DNA of 64,000 bases from Polytrichum commune (taxonomy: Eukaryota; Streptophyta; Polytrichopsida; Polytrichales; Polytrichaceae), in contig OX485803.1 of the NCBI GenBank assembly GCA_950295325.1, forward strand, positions 62,263,554-62,327,553, in the 5' to 3' direction. Every line of letters starts with the position of its first letter. The stretch's first letter is position 1. Made by a program: the position numbers and the translations under genes. Below, piece by piece: positions 15,715 through 61,519 of the stretch. The notes under the pieces were generated by a model that did no database searches, was not told where the DNA came from, and saw only the letters and a program-made list of their open reading frames with translations.

Positions 15715-18700
15715 ATGCGGTTGGCCATGTGCAAGATGGGGCGGCTAGACCGCGTTGCAGGTTCGAAAGGAGCTGCAACAGCAATGTTAGCAGCCTTCAA
15801 GATTATCATTATGTGCGTGACTGTGGTTGCATTGGGAAATGGACGAGTGGTGGAAGCTCAGGGGAGCTGGCAGCTGTTGGTGCCGAACTCGGGATTATCG
15901 TCGATGCACACGGCGGTGACACGATTCAACACGGTGGTGTTCTTAGAACGAACTAACCAAGGAGCCACCAGTTTGAAGCTGCCAGGTGATTGGTTGCTCT
16001 CACACATTTGGCAACGAAAACGCCGGTTTCAAAACGGAGATCGGTGGGCCAAGGTAGACCAATGTTGGCCTTCAAATGCGTCTAAGCTTGGGGAGCTTGG
16101 TTCAAGGTTGGTCCCCCGTTTTCAACTCTGATCCAAGACGGGAGGTTTTGTAAGGTTTAAAACCTCCCTTTTAAAAAATGGGGACTAACCTTGAAACCAA
16201 GTTACTCAAGGTAAGGCACGTGTCAAGGTCAAAATTCAATCACCTTGAGCCACCGATCTCCGTTTCAAAACTGGCGTATTTGAATGTGGGTGGCCTCCCC
16301 TTGAGTCCTTGCATTGATCTGTAATTTGCATTCAGACTTGTGATCAAGATGCTTGTGCTCATTTGTCGCTGTGAGACAATAAATTCTGTGAGTCTTTCAA
16401 GTGGATAGGCTATATGTGGTGGCCACTAATTCCAACTAAACAGAAAAATTGATCATGGCTGTTGGATCGGATCGAGAACCGTCTCACTTGGTTAGCGACA
16501 GCGATGATTCGCGAAGATTGGCACTTCCAAGTTTCAGACTGGGAGTTGAGATGCAAAAGCCATAAGAGGTCAAAGTGAAGAATCGTCCTTCACTTGACTC
16601 TTCTTTCTCTTTAAATTAATGATGAATATGTCCTCCCAATTTAGTGTAAACTATGGCACCTAGAATGGTGTTATTAAGTGTCGCACTTAGTGTGATTGCA
16701 ATTTCATTTATGATGTATGTGGATTGTTGATGAATGTGTTGGGCACACTAAATCATATTCAAATATATAGTGTAGCGGCTCTCTTGATTGTTACATAAGA
16801 GCTCATTGTTCGTCATTTATCTCCATATAGCATTGCTAACCTCCACCTACCACTTATTCTAGGCCAAAGAATAATTCAACCAAAGACCACAAATGAGCAA
16901 GTTGTGATTCCCAAAAAATTACGGCTTCATTTCAAAGTTCCATGGCAAGGTTCATGTGGAACATGGCATCTCTTTTAATTAGAATCGGTGAGGGCGTATG
17001 AGGCTTAGTATTTGTTATCCAAGTTTGCTCAAATTGAATTGTAATGTGTGGGTGCAGATCTTGATAGATAGAGTTTTGGTTGATTATAATTTTCTAGTTT
17101 GGTCTTGATCTTTCAGCTGACTGAATGAAAGTTGGATTTGGGAATCATGAATGATGTCATGTGCAGGAGGAAAATGTAGGAATGACCCATCTGATCAGTA
17201 TCTCAAGGTGGATTGTTGGGCTCATTCCTCTGTGATGAACCTGGCCAACAATGCTATCCGTGCGCTCATGATCCTCACTGACACGCAATGTTCAGCTGGC
17301 CAATTCGTTGCAGACGGCACATTAAAGCAGATTGGAGGCAACAACAATGGCATCAGAAGGGTCAGGTAGGCAAAACTAGGCTGAATTCGAATGCTCATTC
17401 AAGTCAAGAATAAACCCATGTGAAAGTCTAAAAAGTTGACATCAAGGAGCAAGGAGTTGGGCCAATGTGAGGTGAGGTTTTTTCAAATGAGGGGCTAAAA
17501 ACGAAGAAGGCAACAATTTAATAATATACAACGGACAACATGGGTGGACATTGTGAGGTCGTCATCCAACCGTTCACAGCTGTTCCTCATAGTTGTCCAC
17601 CATACTGAAAAGGTGTAGGGGACTATGTTAGCATGATGTGACAATGGTTAGGGGCGTTCTGGGACATTGATATATATATATATATATATGCATGGGTGCA
17701 ATGGTTTGGGACGGCAATTTTCCAAACTAGTAGGAATTCAATGTCATGTTAGTCATTGGTTCATTTGATCATGTGAACCACATGGAGAAAGCATTGTGAC
17801 TTTAAGGTGAACTTGCATTGATATGTATATAGTTGCTCACGGTGAGTCAGGAAAACGATTCCAAGTAGATTAGTCACTGTAACACTTAAATGCTTGAAAA
17901 GCGGAAGGCGGTTGGTTGGGTGCTCAAGGATAAAAGAGCTACCTTCATGCTTCAAGATAACTTGTCCATCATGTGGCCGGAGGAATACTTCGCTTTTTCA
18001 TGATGTAGATCCCTTGTTCTCTTTTTTTCCCTTTTGCTACATGGTTTTGGATGGAAGAGGGTAATCGTGCTAATGAATCTAGTTCCGATAGGAAACACTG
18101 TCAGTAGGAGACACAACCTTCAGAACCTTCTAAATGCATTGCAAATATCCCCTTTGCAATGGAGTTTAGGGGACATAGCCTTCAAGCGATTCAAATGTGC
18201 TGCACATGATGCCCTCCCTGTAACTCCAACGATAACAGTTTTTGGAGGTTTTTGTGATGGATTGATTCCTAATCTTCCTACTTTGTACCAGTAGCCGATA
18301 GGGAATTCTGAATGTATCAGTGACATTCTCTTGGAATCTTCCACAGTCTTTGCATTGCAATGCAATAAATTGAACAACATATGACTATCTTTCAGGACAT
18401 TCACACCCTGCCCGCCCACCGGCTCGTGCGACTGGGTGGAAACGGCGGAGAGAACCCAGGTCGACCGGTGGTACTCCACATCCCAACTCCTCCCCGACCA
18501 ACGCATCATCGTGATCGGGGGGCGCACCGTCCCAAACATCGAGTTCCTCCCCGCGAAAGGGCTCAAAGTTACACCCATGCAGTTCCTTCTTGACACACAG
18601 ACGTCGGGGAGTAATGGGCAGGCCGACAACTGGTACCCGTATGTGCACCTCCTTCCCGACGGAAACCTCTACATCTTCGCCAACACCAAGTCCATCGTCT

Positions 18701-21650
18701 ACAACTACAAGGCCAACGCAGTCGTCCGGACGTTCCCGGTGCTCCCCGGGGGGCCCCGCAACTACCCGTCTGGCGGGTCGTCTGTCATGTTGCCTTTGAG
18801 CTTTGTGGACGCGTTCAAGTCAGTCGAGGTGCTTGTTTGTGGAGGTGCGGCGCCCAACGCGTTCACAATCGCCGAGAGCAGAAAAACCTTCTTGCCGTGT
18901 CAACAGACGTGCGGGCGGATGCGGGTGACGGACGTCGCACCCAAGTGGCTCGTGGAGACCATGCCCGTGAAACGGTGCATGGGGGACATGCTCCTCCTTC
19001 CCGACCAAAATGTGCTCATCATCAATGGTGCACAGGCCGGTGAGTTTCATTCAAGTCTAGGAAAACTCTTGAAAGATTATTGTTGGAAAACTCCTGAAAC
19101 TTTTGAAACCGATTTGAAAATAGGTGAGGTCCAATCTTGCCCAAGATTTTTTGGGAAATGAGGGTCCAACTTGCCTCAAGGGGAGGCCACAAGTGTTTGA
19201 GAACACTAGTTTCAAAACAGAGATTGGTGGACCAAGGTAAGAGAATTTTGGCCTTGACATAGTGAAGCACTAGTCAAGGCCAAAATAAATTTACCTTGGC
19301 CCACTTATCTCCGTTTTCGAAACCGATGTTTTCAAATGTGTGTGGCCTCCACAGGAGGGGGGGGCCTTGTTTCTGAGAATGCACCCGGCGAGGGCCTCAC
19401 CAATGTAAAGAAAATGGGGCAATCTTTCGACATTCGTTGTTGGTTGGCGAAATTACGAACAACATAAAGTCCTCCTGGAAAGCTGGTGGGCAATTCCGTG
19501 TGGTGAGATGTGAGCGAGGTACACTAAGAAAATTGCCGCGGTTCTTTATGATTGTGGGAACAGGTACATGTGGCCAATTTGACGGTCACGGTGACGGTAT
19601 TGATTTATGTGTTTCTGCTGTATGTATAACAGGATCACAAAGTGAGGGTCGGGCAATCACTCCAGTCCTCACTCCTGTGCTTTACCAGACCAATGTTGCA
19701 TCGCCGCGATTCGTCTCTATGGCAGCGTCCAATATCCCTCGAATGTACCACTCCACCGCCAATCTACTGCCGGTAAGACCATATTAACCCTTAAATTCCC
19801 GTGGGATGAGGTATTTTCTAAGATGTGCTCAAAAATAAAATTTCCAAGGGTCTTTCAAGAACTATCACAAAAGAAAACTTTGTATGAGTCACGACCATCA
19901 AAGTATCACATCCACTTGGTTGAAAATAGAAAATTACTTCTGGCCCTCCTATAATGCACTCAGAAGTTCAAAGTTACTACGGAAATTCATCTGAGAATCA
20001 CAATGCTCATAGTTTTGATGAGAAACTTGCTGTGATCGGTTGAAATCACAAATACTATAGACTGCTGAGTTGTAAGCAAAATTCGATCTTGAAGTGATCA
20101 AACGGTCATGATGACTCTAGATGTGCAGTAACACTTCATAAAGTTTAGAAGATAACCACCCATGAAATTTCAAAACCTACATTCAGGAGGAAGAAAATGT
20201 TAATCAATACATTAACAAGGTCCATCACTTGACATTGAGAGTCCCGTGTTGAGACAGTTAGACCATTAAGGGTAAACTACTCTTTTCCTCGAGGTAGTGG
20301 CAAAACTACACTGATTATCCCAATTAGAGCATGTTACTATTCGGAGTTACACAATGCAATAACGTCCTCCTCAGGATTTCAATTTTTACTAACGAAAGTT
20401 CAATAGGTTGTCGGACATTATGAAACATATTAAATGACATTGCTTGGCAAAATATCACATTTTCATTAAATATATATAGCACTACATAGCTCCGAATAGT
20501 AACACACACACTAATTGAGATCTATAATCAATGCACACCCGTTATGATATTTATGTCACATACATTATTTGCAAAGGGCCTAAAACTAGATGCCTGGAGG
20601 TCTCAAAGTAGTACGCCCGCTAATTGCCAATATGATTCCATTTGTCAACACAAGTAACTTCTTTATGTGAAAAAATGTCTACTTTATGACATTTAGAGTA
20701 GCACATTGGGATGCTTTAAACAGTAGTCTGGCGTTTTAGTATGCAAGAGGAAGATGTTTTGAGTGTACTAATGGCAAGTGTCATGTGTTTACATTTTAGT
20801 ATGCAAGAGGAAGATATTCTTGAACATACTAATGACAAGTATCATTTGTGTGCACTTTAGTCAACTTGTAGACCATTGTGACACATAGGCATGCAGCTTA
20901 TACCACTATTGAACATGCTCATGTCGAGATATTAGTAAGCGCACTTGAATGCCACGTGTCATGAGGTGACAATTACGGTGAAGTTGTTAATCATCAATGT
21001 AACCTAGCATACGCCTCAAAATAGGGTAAGTGACACTATCACACATGTGACACTAAACACCATAAACGATGCAGTGCTCTTCACCCATCATCGTCAAAAC
21101 AGAATTGCGGCATCGTGCATGGAGTTTGTCTGTCACAGTAACATGCGAAGTCGAAATTTTTGCTGTGCTAATGAACCATGATCTGTCTTGCACTCAGGAC
21201 GGACGCGTCATGCCAGCCGGAAGCAACACCAACCGAGTCCACAAATACTCCAAAGTTCCCTTCCCCACTGAACTCCGCCTGGACGCCTTCTCCCCTCCCT
21301 ACTTGGCCGCGTCCCAAAACCCTAAGAGGCCCACCATCACCCTCTCCCCCACATCCGCCAACCTTGGATCCACCTTCTTGGTGCGATTCTCTGTTGTGGA
21401 TCCCAAAACGGTGATTGGCAACGTGGACGTCATCATCAACAGCTCTCCGTTCACGACGCACTCGTATTCTCAGGGCCTTCGGATGCTCAAACTGCAGACC
21501 AGTGGGCAGAAGGCAATTGCCTCTCCACAGTTTGAGCTCACCGTTACTGCACCACCGAATGCGAATCTGGCGCCTCAGTCGTATTACATGTTGTGGGTTG
21601 TCAACCAGAACATCCCCTCCAGCAAGGCGGTGTGGGTTCAATTGACTTAA
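15715..21650 (+). CDS. Secreted galactose/glyoxal oxidase-type copper radical oxidase
   Basis: Five exons: 15715-15985, 17167-17365, 18396-19039, 19633-19772, 21198-21650; all GT-AG, in phase, 568 residues from ATG 15715 (in-frame ATGs at 15727, 15736 and 15784 are alternatives). A hydrophobic stretch (MLAAFKIIIMCVTVVAL) ends in VEAQGSW, consistent with a cleaved signal peptide preceded by a longer basic leader. Glyoxal-oxidase N domain: DQYLKVDCWAH. The copper-radical residues expected in the family are visible: Cys in TQCSAG, Tyr in RWYSTSQLLPD (the thioether partner), Tyr-His in RMYHSTANLLPDGRV, and the C-terminal His in FTTHSYSQGLR, within the DUF1929-type domain. Such enzymes oxidise aldehydes or primary alcohols to give H2O2 in the apoplast; plant GLOX proteins act in cell wall and pollen development. 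Substrate is not predictable here. Exon 3 is notably GC-rich. Confidence 0.92.
15996..16300. mobile_element. Fold-back MITE in oxidase intron 1
   Basis: Arms share CGGTTTCAAAACGGAGATCGGTGG (read in pieces) and its reverse complement near 16248-16275; the right end is GTGGCCTCCCC. It begins only about 10 bp after the exon 1 donor. Related to the smaller element at 19180-19352. Confidence 0.7.
16640..16780. other. MITE-like remnant in oxidase intron 1
   Basis: Contains ATTAAGTGTCGCACTTAGTG and ends ATATAGTGTAGCG, resembling the TIRs of the TACTACACTAA family. Boundaries uncertain. Confidence 0.4.
17668..17692. repeat. (AT)n microsatellite in intron 2
   Basis: Uninterrupted alternating AT run within the oxidase intron 2. 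Confidence 0.9.
19180..19352. mobile_element. Fold-back MITE in oxidase intron 3
   Basis: About 173 bp, nearly palindromic: starts GGGGAGGCCACA and ends TGTGGCCTCCAC, with arms carrying GAGATTGGTGGACCAAGGTAA / TTACCTTGGCCCACTTATCTC. Same family as 15996-16300. Confidence 0.8.
20330..20512. mobile_element. Fold-back MITE in oxidase intron 4
   Basis: Arms GTTACTATTCGGAGTTACAC and the complementary CTCCGAATAGTAAC; inner parts also mirror (CACAATGC / GCACTACATAG). Similar inner arm to the element at 13096-13330. Confidence 0.7.
20540..21067. mobile_element. ~530 bp MITE in oxidase intron 4
   Basis: Left end GTTATGATATTTATGTCACATAC, right end ATGTGACACTAAACACCATAAACG: inverted-repeat ends. Contains two internal copies of TTTAGTATGCAAGAGGAAGAT. 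A second copy in opposite orientation lies at 63203-63733. It ends about 130 bp before the last coding exon. Confidence 0.75.
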
Positions 21651-29577: not shown

Positions 29578-29774
29578 GCCCACAAACGCTGTACGCTAGA
29601 AATCACTACGAATATGTATGGATCATTAGAAGTAGAGTTTTCTTAGCACCAACTGTTGTCTAGTGGCTTGCCCAGGAGTCTACATTGGGGCTTGACTGAT
29701 GCTTGAACTCAATTATCATCTCTCAGTGGTTGAGTAACTTATCCACAGTGATTGACAAACCACAATCCCACAAA

Positions 29775-31564
29775 ATGATGAAGACGTTTGCCCTGCTCTT
29801 GAGTTTCACCACTTTGTTCAACACGGGCACGCCGTCGAAATTCTTAGCCAGCAGCGCACCGGATGGAAGTTCCGATTCCCGCCCCCAATTGTACATGCCC
29901 CTGCCCGTCCAGGACACCCACCGCCCCCTCACGGACGCCGAAAAGCTACTCGACGCGCAGCAGGGGCGGCCCCTCCCGGCGCTCGAGCTCCTCCAGCCAA
30001 CCCTAGATCCCACCCTGCCCAAATACAAATACGTCGTCACAACCAAACCGGCCACCTTGAAGGGCTATTACAAGGTGGCCGCGTCCGACGTGCTCCCGGG
30101 CCTCGTCCACCTGTGGATCGCCGCATTCCGGAAGCTTCACCCGGGGGTGACAATTGACTTGTCGCCCCCGTACAGCGGCAGCTACGGCACCACCGAGCTC
30201 ATCAACCAGACGATCGACCTAGTTTTCAGTTCCCGGGAGCTTCGACCCCAGGACATCACGGTGTTCCGGGCGAAGTTTGGGTATGACCCCCTCAGCGTGC
30301 CGGTGTCGGGCGGCACGTATCGGCACTACGGGTTCCTCGACGCCGTCGCCTTCATCGTCAACAAGGTGAGTAGAAGCACTTTCATGAGCTCTTTCATGGG
30401 ACCCTGTATGACGTGATCGAAACTTCTCACGATGTTGTTGTTTTGGAAAGTTCTAGCAAAATTCCCGTAAGGAAGCGCGAATTATGAAGTTTGTAGAATT
30501 TCGACATCTTGTGTATTGTAAGTGATGAATGAATTTCTAGGCTTCCTTGTGATGATCTGAAAGGGGTTGCATATGTAGCCCTCCTATAGCAGATAGTCAT
30601 GTTGAGTGTTGATTTTGTGGTCTCCTTCAGCTACCAAGGAGCTGCATTTTCCAATCCTTAGCATAATCTCATAAGAATCGATACTCAGATTGAAGTACGT
30701 AGCTACACTCTTTCCTCATTTTAGTGTAGATACTGATATAATGTGGGTGGTGTACGTGTCTTTGAAACTGGTTGTCGAGGGTTGAAGTCGAGCTTCTAAA
30801 TAATATGTGCGTAGAAGATGATTAATTTAGTGAAATAAAGTTTCACAACAATCCAGCCCACACTACAGAGAAGAAAGAGCATAACTCTCCACTTTGGGGA
30901 CCAAAACTAATCAAGAATTGGAAAAATTGTGGTCATTGACTGATGGAATTGGACGCTTCTTCTATAAAAGGCGAACCCGCTCGACAAGCTCACATACAAG
31001 CAGTTGGACGCCCTCCTGTCCGCGACGCGGGTGCACGGGGGCGCCCCGGTCCGGACGTGGGGGGAGCTCGGGCTGACAGGGGAAGAGTGGGCAGACAAGC
31101 CCATCACCGTGCACGCCATCCACCCGTGGAACGGGTTCGAGGAGTTTGTGCGCCAACGCGTGCTCAGCGTGCCCGGCCACCGGGGGGAGTGGCGCCCCGA
31201 TCTGAACTGGACGGCGGGGGGGCTGGTGTTCCCGGTCGCGGACTCGGTGGCCGCGGACCCCTACAGCCTCGGCTACACGGGCATGGCCTACATCAACGCC
31301 ACCGCAAAAACACTCGCCATCTCCACGAACGGGAGCATTTTCTACCCGCCCAGCTACGAGGCGGTGGCGCTCGCCCATTACCCGCTCAGCCGGCTTGTGT
31401 ATTTCAACGTCAACAAGGTGCCCGGCCAGCCTCTGCCGCCCGCGTTGCAAGAGTTTCTCAACTTCATCCTGAGCCGCCAAGGCCAGAGACTCATCCGGAA
31501 GCAAGGCTTGTTCCTTCCGCTACGAGGATGGCAGGTCGAGAGTTCCCGGGCCATGGCCGCCTGA
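29775..31564 (+). CDS. Secreted PstS-like periplasmic-binding-fold protein, candidate transferred gene
   Basis: Two exons: 29775-30365 and 30971-31564, joined in phase 0 (...FIVNK|ANPLDKLTYKQ...), 394 residues. ATG 29775 starts a hydrophobic signal peptide (MMKTFALLLSFTTLFN). The body resembles the PBP-like (PstS-type) substrate-binding domain: LHPGVTIDL, SGSYGTTELINQTIDLVF, SSRELRPQDI, the VNKxNPL motif, then GLTGEEWADKPITVH, and a C-terminal IRKQGLFLPL typical of these proteins. In bacteria such proteins bind phosphate or related oxyanions outside the cell; its plant role is unknown. Both exons are strikingly GC-rich compared with the AT-rich 605 bp intron and flanks. Family and reading frame are clear; ligand and origin are inference. 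Confidence 0.82.
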
Positions 31565-38640: not shown

Positions 38641-38896
38641 ATCTTAGATTAGATTTATAGACAACCAAGCGTCTGTCTCATAACACTGTAAGACTTCAGT
38701 ATCGTCATTGCATTCAATCCAAATTGTGGTAGGGAAAGAAGCCATCCGTTTCGGGTTCAGGTTTAAAGAAGCATACCCAGAGGTCTTAGATTAGCCACAT
38801 TGCCAATGCTCTCCAGAGAAACTGCATTCTGTGGACCATTCGACTTTAGAACTTCGTCTAATTCGTTGCTTAGAAAATCGGTTGGCTCTACTTGAG

Positions 38897-38980
38897 CAGT
38901 GCATCAGTGTTAAAAAGCTCGTTCTAGATATTCCTCACAGAAAGTAGGCGTTGGATCTAGGTTTCGCATCATTTGCACTG
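38897..38980 (-). ncRNA. Box C/D snoRNA E, copy 1
   Basis: 84 nt with perfect 7 bp terminal stem (CAGTGCA/TGCACTG), C box AATGATGC and D box CTGA next to the stem. Directly upstream of D is ACGAGCTTTTTAAC, complementary to GTTAAAAAGCTCGT of conserved 18S rRNA. The nucleotide five upstream of D points to the first A of that A-run. Identification rests on the boxes, stem, guide and conservation with copy 2 (39432-39515), whereas flanks diverge. Confidence 0.85.
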
Positions 38981-39079
38981 ACCCTCGACACAAAACTATT
39001 TTCGTTCTTTTTTCAAAAACGATTCTACATTTACCGTAACTGTCCGGTTGACAACAGACCAAAAAGCACCCCCACCAAC

Positions 39080-39150
39080 CAGTATTAACACAATCACTCT
39101 TGCGCAACCGCCATTAAACCACAAAAGTATTGGTTGGAGCACATAGCATT
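39080..39150 (-). ncRNA. Conserved block between snoRNAs D1 and E1, possible H/ACA RNA
   Basis: On the minus strand a stem CCAACCA/TGGTTGG encloses a large loop with the block GGCGGTTGCGCAAGAG, which is conserved in the second unit near 39615-39670. I could not place a firm H box or 3' ACA, so the class is uncertain. Confidence 0.35.
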
Positions 39151-39198
39151 GGTAAAGGATCACAGCTACTCCGTACCCGGGTGAATACCAAAAAAATT

Positions 39199-39287
39199 AA
39201 TACTCAGACAGCCAAGAGTTGTTTCTTCACACTGGCAAACCAGATCAGAAACTCTAGTCCGAAACACTTTGGTATCATCATCGCATT
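39199..39287 (-). ncRNA. Box C/D snoRNA D, copy 1
   Basis: C box ATGATGA preceded by AATGCG, D box CTGA followed by GTATT (short wobble-containing stem), internal D' CTGA. Guide before D' is CGGACTAGAGTT, complementary to ACTCTAGTCCG of conserved 25S rRNA. Guide before D is CTTGGCTGT, complementary to ACAGCCAAG, which lies near the first site in 25S rRNA; from memory these are the yeast snR78/snR66 and snR64 neighbourhoods. The 77 nt core is identical in copy 2. Confidence 0.88.
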
Positions 39288-39431
39288 GAACTGCATGTCA
39301 ATACCACACGTCCACTCACTTCGCGTAGCCCTCAAAAACCCGTGTCAGATCACCCGCCGAAACCCGTTTCTACATACATTTTCAAATTATGTTTGTGTCG
39401 AAATTATTTTAGACGTGTTTATATTCAAGAG

Positions 39432-39515
39432 CAGTGCATCAGTGTTAAAAAGCTCGTTCTAGATAATCCTCACAGAAAGTAGGCGTTGGATCTAGGTTTC
39501 GCATCATTTGCACTG
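39432..39515 (-). ncRNA. Box C/D snoRNA E, copy 2
   Basis: Same 7 bp terminal stem, C and D boxes and 18S guide as copy 1. Only one or two differences from copy 1 within the predicted RNA, while sequence just outside has diverged. Confidence 0.87.
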
Positions 39516-39728
39516 TACCCGAACACGAAACTCTCTTCCTCCTTTTTCAAGACGCTTCGAAATTTACCGTGGCTTTCCCGGTTTGCAAGAGACCAAAAAG
39601 AACCCAAACAACCAGTATTACCACGAATGCTCTTGCGCAACCGCCATTAAACCACAAAGTACTGTTTTCACTCTTGGTATTGGTAAGGGGCGCAGCTACT
39701 CCATATCCTCACAGATAACGAATAAATT

Positions 39729-39816
39729 GATGCTCAGACAGCCAAGAGTTGTTTCTTCACACTGGCAAACCAGATCAGAAACTCTAGTCCGAAACACTTT
39801 GGTATCATCATCGTAT
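39729..39816 (-). ncRNA. Box C/D snoRNA D, copy 2
   Basis: Core from the C box to the D box identical to copy 1. The terminal stem is weaker here (TAATAC versus GCATCA), so processing might rely on the host intron or on the boxes alone. Confidence 0.85.
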
Positions 39817-40244
39817 TACATTGCATGTCCACAACCACACCCACTCACATCGCGTAGCCCTCAGAAACCCGTGTCAAATCATCCGCCGAAACCCGATTCA
39901 CCTATCAACCTGCCACTCCTCCTGCAAATCTCCAATTTAAGAATATTTCCAGGTCCAACAGCAGGGAAGAGTTACTCGAGCCTCGACATGACTGTCATAC
40001 GGCACTTCCTATCTTGGGAGATTATCATCTTAGGACAACGATTGCACGAAAGCAAAAAGGGAACTTTAAAATGAATGTTATCACCCTGTATGGCACCATT
40101 ACACAACTGCTTGTAGGCATACACATGGCTTCCTATCGAAAGATGAAAAAGATCTCTGCCCAACCCTGGTCGAATGTAGGGTCACAGCTCATGCTACCCC
40201 CTTCGTGGCAGGTTGGCAGGTTCTTGATTTACGACCAATCGAAA

Positions 40245-40323
40245 GAGGCCTCAGTCAGCCAGTTCTCAGCATGTGGTTCAATACCATAAGCCGGTAATTC
40301 CAAATAATTCTTCACTGGCCTCT
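40245..40323 (-). ncRNA. Box C/D-like snoRNA B, copy 1
   Basis: On the minus strand an AGAGGCC/GGCCTCT stem brackets a C-like box GTGAAGA (one change from consensus) and a D box CTGA directly before the stem. Internal CTGA could be D'. It also contains TGGAATTACCG, complementary to CGGTAATTCCA of conserved 18S rRNA, but not positioned directly before a D box. Conservation with copy 2 supports function; target assignment is uncertain. Confidence 0.6.
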
Positions 40324-40348
40324 TCGAAACTACCAAGTACGTGCAAAA

Positions 40349-40428
40349 AGGCATCAGTTCTCCAAGGTGTTTAGCATCACAAAAAATCAGGCGCAAATTA
40401 CCCATTCGACGTGTTTCATCACCTGCCT
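40349..40428 (-). ncRNA. Box C/D snoRNA A, copy 1
   Basis: 80 nt: AGGCA/TGCCT terminal stem, C box GTGATGA, D' CTGA, C' TGTGATG, D CTGA. Guide before D' is TGGGTAATTTGCGC, complementary to GCGCAAATTACCCA of conserved 18S rRNA (14 bp); the fifth nucleotide selects the first A after GCGC, from memory the yeast Am436 site. Guide before D is CACCTTGGAGAA, complementary to TTCTCCAAGGTG, which resembles a conserved 25S segment. The best-formed snoRNA in the cluster. Confidence 0.92.
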
Positions 40429-40680
40429 CTCCAAATACAGAAGACCAAGAGGAATGAGGAGGATACTTGCACCAGAAGCTATCACCAGGTATCCTCACAA
40501 ACGTTCAACCATCAAGAAAACCCTAGGCACATATTTTCAAGTCAGAACCCTAGAACCCTAAAATCCTAAAGTGTGAGAAGCCGTCAGTTCTCCGAGGTGT
40601 CACAGAAATCGGGAGGAGTCACAGCTCATACTACCCTTTCGTGACAGTTTGACAGGTTCCTAATTTACAGCTAATCGATA

Positions 40681-40756
40681 GAGGCCTCAGTCAGCCAGTT
40701 CTCAGCATGTGGTCCAAAAACATAAGCCGGTAATTCCAAATAATTCTTCACTGGCC
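40681..40756 (-). ncRNA. Box C/D-like snoRNA B, copy 2
   Basis: Same C-like box GTGAAGA, 18S-complementary TGGAATTACCG and distal CTGAGGCCTC as copy 1; the 5' part of the stem is shortened to GGCC. Confidence 0.55.
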
Positions 40757-40794
40757 TTTCATCCCTGAATTTTCAAACTTCTAGTGGGCGCAAA

Positions 40795-40874
40795 AGGCAT
40801 CAGTTCTCCAAGGTGTTTAGCATCACAGTAATCAGGCGCAAATTACCCATTCGAAATCGTTTCATCACTTGCCT
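40795..40874 (-). ncRNA. Box C/D snoRNA A, copy 2
   Basis: AGGCA/TGCCT stem, GTGATGA, both guides and both D boxes retained; a few changes only outside the guides (for example ACGATTTC versus CACGTC after the C box). Confidence 0.9.
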
Positions 40875-40939
40875 CCAATCATAGATTACATGTGTTGCTC
40901 CCAATGAGGATGTTAGGATGCCTAACTATAACCAATAAT

Positions 40940-41000
40940 GAGGAGGCGTCAGTTCTTCAAGGTGTTTAGCATCACAGAAACCAGGCGCCCTATCACTTCA
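40940..41000 (-). pseudogene. Degenerate third copy of snoRNA A
   Basis: Keeps C' (TGTGATG), the 25S-like guide CACCTTGAAGAA (one change) and D box CTGA, but the 5' half with C box and 18S guide is lost or unrecognisable. Confidence 0.7.
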
Positions 41001-41509
41001 TCCACTACTACATCCGCAGCACTCAGAATGAGTAGGAGGTTTGGTTGCATCAAAGAGCAAGCTCTCAACCAAATTCATTGTTTTCCTCAACGTGCATCGA
41101 ACATCCAATAAATACACCAAACCCTAAAAGGAACATTCACTTCCTTAAAGCGACTCTTCGGCGCTGTATAAACATGTCCTCACCAACAAGGAACTCAGAT
41201 AAACACTCGCTACGAACAAATGCATAGACATGTAAAGAGATAGTTTGTCACCGTCTCTCTCGGCTGTCGAATCCCAGGAACCATGTGACCCCATGAACAG
41301 AGTACAGGTAAGAAACTGAGACTAATGTAGACAACAGGGAAGGAAGAGGACGCCATATCCAAAACACATAAATATTCGGTGGAATGCACTCAGTAATGCT
41401 GCCACAGCTCTAATATCCAATATGCTCAAACCCTCAGCCTCCCACAACAATCCATGCTACAAATGACCAAATGCTGAACCCTGAGCCTTGCACAGCAGGA
41501 GCAAGCCAG

Positions 41510-41528
41510 AGCCTTAAACCCTAAACCC
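41510..41528 (-). promoter_or_regulatory. Telo-box near the start of the snoRNA cluster
   Basis: TTTAGGGTTTAA on the minus strand about 60 bp downstream of the TATA-like site. Telo-boxes are common near the transcription start of plant snoRNA and ribosomal-protein genes. Further AAACCCTAA-like motifs occur near 41118 and 40555. Confidence 0.6.
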
Positions 41529-41576
41529 CGAAGGCGGGGTGAGAAGCAAGAGATATCAATCTGGAAGAAGGGGGAG

Positions 41577-41586
41577 GCTTTATAAG
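41577..41586 (-). promoter_or_regulatory. Candidate TATA box of the snoRNA cluster
   Basis: CTTATAAAG on the minus strand, flanked by GC-richer sequence, upstream of the telo-box and of all snoRNAs. Inferred as a Pol II promoter for a polycistronic or intron-hosted precursor. Confidence 0.5.
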
Positions 41587-43530
41587 CCGATGAGGCCTGT
41601 TTCCTCGTCTTTCTAACAGACCGTTGATGGATGAAAGTTGGATGAAAGTTGGACCTCCAAGAGGGAATTGTCGCATCCGAGCCAAGCTCTCATCTATCTA
41701 CCACAAAAACTGGAACTTCTTTACGTTTGTGGCGGATTCATCAGGAATGATTCAAGTTAGAGTAAGGGCCGGTTTACACTACGGTGGAGAAGGCCTCCGG
41801 TCGGTCAAGAATGCTTGGCCAAGACATGGTTATATGAGGCAAATGGTGGATGTGCCGGAGAAGAATCAAAGGCAATAAAATATTTCTTAAGGAGTCTTGA
41901 CCGGTTGAAGTCTAAACACCTAGAGGAGAAGTCCACCGGAGAAGTCCACCGGTGAAGAGAAGTTCACGTAATGGTGAAGATTTTTTGTGATAAAAAACCA
42001 TAATTCTCTACATTCACATTGTATCAAAAGATTCCAACAAGAATTGTGTTCATAAGAATTGTATAATATAATGTTCAATTTTATTCAGAAGATAATGAAA
42101 ATTGCCAAATTGCCAATTGTCAAGTTTGGCCCATGTAGGAAATAAATGTCTCCTTGGGTGTTTAAGAATGAAGAGGGGAAAACCCATACACATTGGACAA
42201 AGCACTACTCTTTGGTGTTATTTAAGACATGCTCTCCTCTTGATCATACTCATCAATTTCTCTCTTCTTATCTTTGATCTTCAATCATGGATAATCGAAG
42301 AAGAGAGATTTTGTGCTCTCTTATGATATTTATGGTTTTGAAGTATTTTATCGTTTCAACTATGGCGATACAAAAAACCATCATGTATCACCATAATGCT
42401 TCAATTATGATGATGGCATATGTTTTGTTTGGGAGCAAGGAGAGGGTGGTGTGGAAATTTGACCGGCCAAGTGGATATCCTCATCTTCATCTTGGCTACT
42501 ACCGAACTGAAATTATGAGTAACCAGCCATTGCGAAAAAAAATTGCACAAATTTTTTTTGCTAAGGAGCTACTACAGCACACAGAGAGAGAGCTGGGCAT
42601 TTCTTGAGTGAAGCTATGCTTACTTTCAAGCATATTTCTTTCTATAACATCCTCTTTGTCAAGAGGCCATTCCATTCTTTCATATATCTATGTATCTATC
42701 AAAACTTGGGAGGGTGGGTGGGATCTTCCCTCCTTGTTAGTACATTGCACATTTTAACCTTTACACTTTGGAGCATTTTGAAAATACTTTCACTATGTAT
42801 GACCTTGGAGTATTCACACCACTACGGTTTGCAAGTGTATATCCTTTCCAAACCAATATGTAACTTAAGTCCAACATATGCATAATCAAGTTTAACATGA
42901 CTACCCAAAAGCCTTTCAAAGTCATTAACAAGGTAGCATTGTAAAACATGCCTTCTAACTTATGGAATGTTTACTTCCTCTATACACACTATTTCGTAAT
43001 GAGATGGTATACAAAACCTAATAGGGCCGTCAATCTTGTGAAGGGTCTGCCTCACCTGTGCCCATGCAACCAACCAACAAAACATTGAGGATTAGTTACG
43101 TACACGAGGTGAATAACAGCAGAATTCAATTGTTATCTATGTCACACAAATACATGAGGCATAATCATACATTTTGTATCCCGAAATACTCACTATCCTC
43201 AATGAGTATTCTACCTGTTCTTTGGCCATTTGAAAACCCACAGCCTGTAGTAAGTCACTTTCACTTTCAACAAGCTCCCACCTTGTTTACCCTAATCACC
43301 AAAATTACCTAAGGTAAACAACTTCCACGGTTTACTCTTGGAAAGGAAGTACTCAAGTGGGCTTCCTCTTAATATACGATTAGGTAATCGTTTAGGACCG
43401 TAGATTCGCACCATCAGATCTATGGTCGTTCATCCTTAGTTGGCCATTGCCTAGTACCAAGGTAAAACCTTTTAGGGTAAAACTTTATTGTGTGGTGTCA
43501 GTTAGTTCAAATCAGACCTAGAGCTAGGTA

Positions 43531-61149: not shown

Positions 61150-61519
61150 CTATGAGGATAAATTCCACCATACAATTCAGAATCGTGCCACTTCCAAACA
61201 TGCAAATTGTAAGATTCAACGTTGCTTAAAACCCTAACCACGAGCTAATCTGAAACCCTAAACGGAATCTGGACTAAAAGTGACAGAATGGCATCAAAAC
61301 TCATGTCTACTTGCTAACGTTGCCCTAAAGCTTGTCCACTCAGAGATTTAGATGCACACATACAACCAAATTGCAGCAACCAATGTGATGTATGGAATTC
61401 AGTCCTTAAACCCTAAACCCTAACTATCGCTTGGTAACAACCACGCAAATTGTAAGATTCAACGTTGCTTGAAACCCTAACTACGAGTTAATCCACCAAA
61501 AAAAAAGGAGAAAGTGAAC

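Follow-up and report, generated by a model that had tools for sequence, protein, structure and literature searches.

The minus strand of a 64,000-nucleotide stretch of the Polytrichum commune genome (contig OX485803.1; the whole stretch is called the window here) very probably carries a plant polycistronic small nucleolar RNA (snoRNA) gene. A first-pass annotation had proposed a tandem-duplicated box C/D snoRNA cluster on this strand, and our analysis bore this out. Several types are indeed doubled, but there are eight types rather than the four proposed, and the C/D members are mixed with putative H/ACA RNAs (snoR80, above its Rfam cut-off, and snoR2, below it) instead of standing alone. The identification rests on Rfam family matches, the duplication structure and complementarity of the guides to general ribosomal RNA (rRNA) sequence. 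It rests further on the C/D RNAs changing more slowly than the rest, on related clusters and on a promoter layout common to some relatives.

An Rfam search returned family-specific matches, and these placed several snoRNAs in line on the one strand. The C/D members carry C and D boxes with a terminal stem. They include two copies of R77Y, a (40679..40757; 52.2 bits) and b (40243..40321; 49.9 bits, cut-off 52, with a guide), and two copies of U36 (SNORD36), a (39433..39513; 40.8 bits) and b (38898..38978; 40.2 bits, with a guide). Further RNA blocks, each with a guide, lie at 40792..40877 (67.0 bits), 40346..40431 (69.6 bits), 39726..39820 (60.6 bits) and 39196..39290 (67.5 bits). The guide-bearing block at 41023..41098 scored 28.9 bits, under the cut-off of 45, and was placed in a seven-row alignment; that at 39856..40037 scored 25.1 bits (cut-off 40) and retains both conserved motifs in an alignment of paralogs. 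By Rfam cut-offs alone, 4 of the 12 RNAs counted as complete fall outside.

We compared the guides with general 18S and 25S rRNA sequence rather than with the host's own. Against this sequence, 14 of the 21 boxes had a guide beside D or D′ with the target base at position 5, and nine predicted sites coincided with 2′-O-methylated nucleotides of Arabidopsis, in keeping with the rRNA complementarity claimed earlier. R77Y copy a, for example, is predicted to target 18S U582 from its D′ box (CTTA), and U36 copy a to target 18S A623. Among the 11 guides tested against shuffles, 3 were without a target and 2 were weak. The D′ stretch of U36 was strongly conserved and had no target.

Two unequal tandem duplications, as judged from the arrangement of the copies, doubled two stretches of the cluster, as the first-pass annotation had also suggested. 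Genes severed at the joints are probably decaying, as is one of the H/ACA copies. The cluster also contains elements at 40941..41022, 40569..40613 and 39307..39370. Conservation was profiled across the window and five related loci (L009 to L013), with L014 to L016 excluded. We considered whether the whole cluster might be a silent, decaying duplicate, with related clusters elsewhere holding the working copies, but we regard this as improbable: the complete C/D copies retain their guides and boxes while the rest differs by 22 to 31%, and the promoter box aligns with that of two relatives. The cluster offers a clear case of plant snoRNA cluster growth and decay that can be compared with relatives elsewhere in the genome. 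The pattern is one in which partial unequal duplications cut genes, complete C/D copies evolve slowly and cut ones are lost.

Of the putative H/ACA members, snoR80 copy a (39560..39684; 54.3 bits, cut-off 45) ends in the tail AAATTT and gave a single-fold z of −0.95; the snoR80 consensus fold contains 2 doubly changed pairs. Copy b (39030..39156) differs from it in 26 of 129 columns, folds poorly, had no Rfam match at E ≤ 1 and has probably decayed. The snoR2/U65-type RNA (40073..40217) scored 30.2 bits (cut-off 44), and its 3′ end reads ACATTC; a clear H box was not seen by eye. Its single fold was no better than shuffles. In a six-row alignment with a two-hairpin consensus, 3 of 44 pairs were changed on both sides and the covariation term was slightly unfavorable. 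Another snoR2 was interrupted where unit A is joined; what is left of it, a 5′ fragment at 40618..40653 (start approximate), aligns to the start of snoR2 at 40217.

Ahead of the cluster lie two elements of a putative promoter, a TATA-like site and a telo-box. The TATA box of the putative RNA polymerase II promoter, GCTTATAAA (41579..41584, minus strand), is aligned in the window, L009 and L011. The telo-box (41516..41524, minus strand; AAACCCTAA on the plus strand) lies 60 nucleotides downstream of it, compared with 61 in L009 and 57 in L013; this spacing was not found in L010, L011 or L012. The AAACCCTAA motif occurs 14 times in the whole window, against 0.87 expected from shuffles, so the telo-box motif is weak evidence by itself; five of the 14 copies fall within 61229-61480. 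A combination of telo-box and Site II has been described for Arabidopsis (PMC4660826), whereas here a TATA box accompanies the telo-box and Site II (TGGGCY) is absent near the cluster head, the nearest on the upstream side being at 42128. The snoRNAs might instead derive from the intron of a host gene, as a few plant snoRNAs do (PMC8351944), but the TATA/telo-box layout directly upstream, common to some relatives, makes this hardly likely; flanking exons were sought as open reading frames (ORFs) of at least 90 codons, without a homology search.

Between the promoter and the first snoRNA lies a conserved leader block (41240..41405, minus strand; about 75% identity in L009 and L010). It had no Rfam match at E ≤ 1, and in three loci it folded no better than shuffles. 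In Arabidopsis, HID1 is carried together with snoRNAs. We consider it a long shot that the leader block is an undescribed noncoding RNA heading the snoRNA precursor, or that the conserved, target-less U36 D′ stretch acts on a non-rRNA target.

We infer that the cluster is transcribed as one precursor, processed and used in rRNA modification. RNA polymerase II would start at the TATA promoter near 41.58 kb and transcribe leftwards for about 2.6 kb, and the precursor would be cleaved between the snoRNAs and trimmed to the terminal stems. The C/D RNAs would then guide fibrillarin in 2′-O-methylation of 18S A440, U582 and A623 and of 25S A1377, C1518, C1860, C2366, U2422 and probably C2880, while the putative H/ACA RNAs snoR80 and snoR2 would guide pseudouridylation. 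Chemical modification of rRNA is most likely what the cluster directs.

Related sequence was found at several places in the genome. This, the tandem duplication and the ORFs running across the cluster, which reach 192 codons from stop to stop, could suggest a repeated mobile or coding element, but that is extremely unlikely given the family-specific Rfam matches, guides falling on known methylation sites, the lack of a Pfam match for ORF 39508-40071 and the snoRNA matches, some below cut-off, in all eight related stretches examined. One relative is the cluster at L011:3040-6153, which has a tandem duplication of its own. A snoU36a there exceeded its cut-off, a U14 match fell just short, and several copies are low-scoring.

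By comparison with known systems, the snoRNA cluster is a fresh example of an ordinary plant arrangement. It deserves annotation, is unsurprising and leaves the understanding of snoRNA function unchanged. Plant U14/U49/snoR clusters were reportedly described by Leader et al. in 1994 and 1997; the window cluster has a U49-like and a snoR2-type RNA, whereas the U14 match is in L011. Like those clusters, which are polycistronic, it appears to combine C/D and H/ACA RNAs, as they can (PMC7464842). Plant snoRNAs sit mostly in clusters (PMC8351944), and duplications spread paralogs within clusters and across the genome (PMC5122169); rice cluster 1 (U36Ia-U36IIa-U36IIb) likewise holds several U36 copies (PMC5122169). 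The duplicated HID2 clusters of Arabidopsis (SnoR4, SnoR5, U31, U33 and U51; PMC8053127) resemble ours in being duplicated, in mixing C/D and H/ACA RNAs and in having members that guide known rRNA methylation sites. As described there, however, they comprise other snoRNA families, and HID2 forms two clusters, whereas the window has two partial tandem units in one.

Elsewhere in the genome, L026:153-3911 (contig C50) carries six consecutive U5 small nuclear RNA matches above cut-off on one strand. Within the window, ORF 31004-31561 (plus strand) matched Pfam PBP_like_2, of the binding-protein superfamily, just over cut-off; ORF 29703-30413, upstream of it, had no Pfam match. The segment at 18436-19158 (plus strand) encodes a protein with PF07250-carrying relatives, named in some sources as glyoxal oxidase or related.
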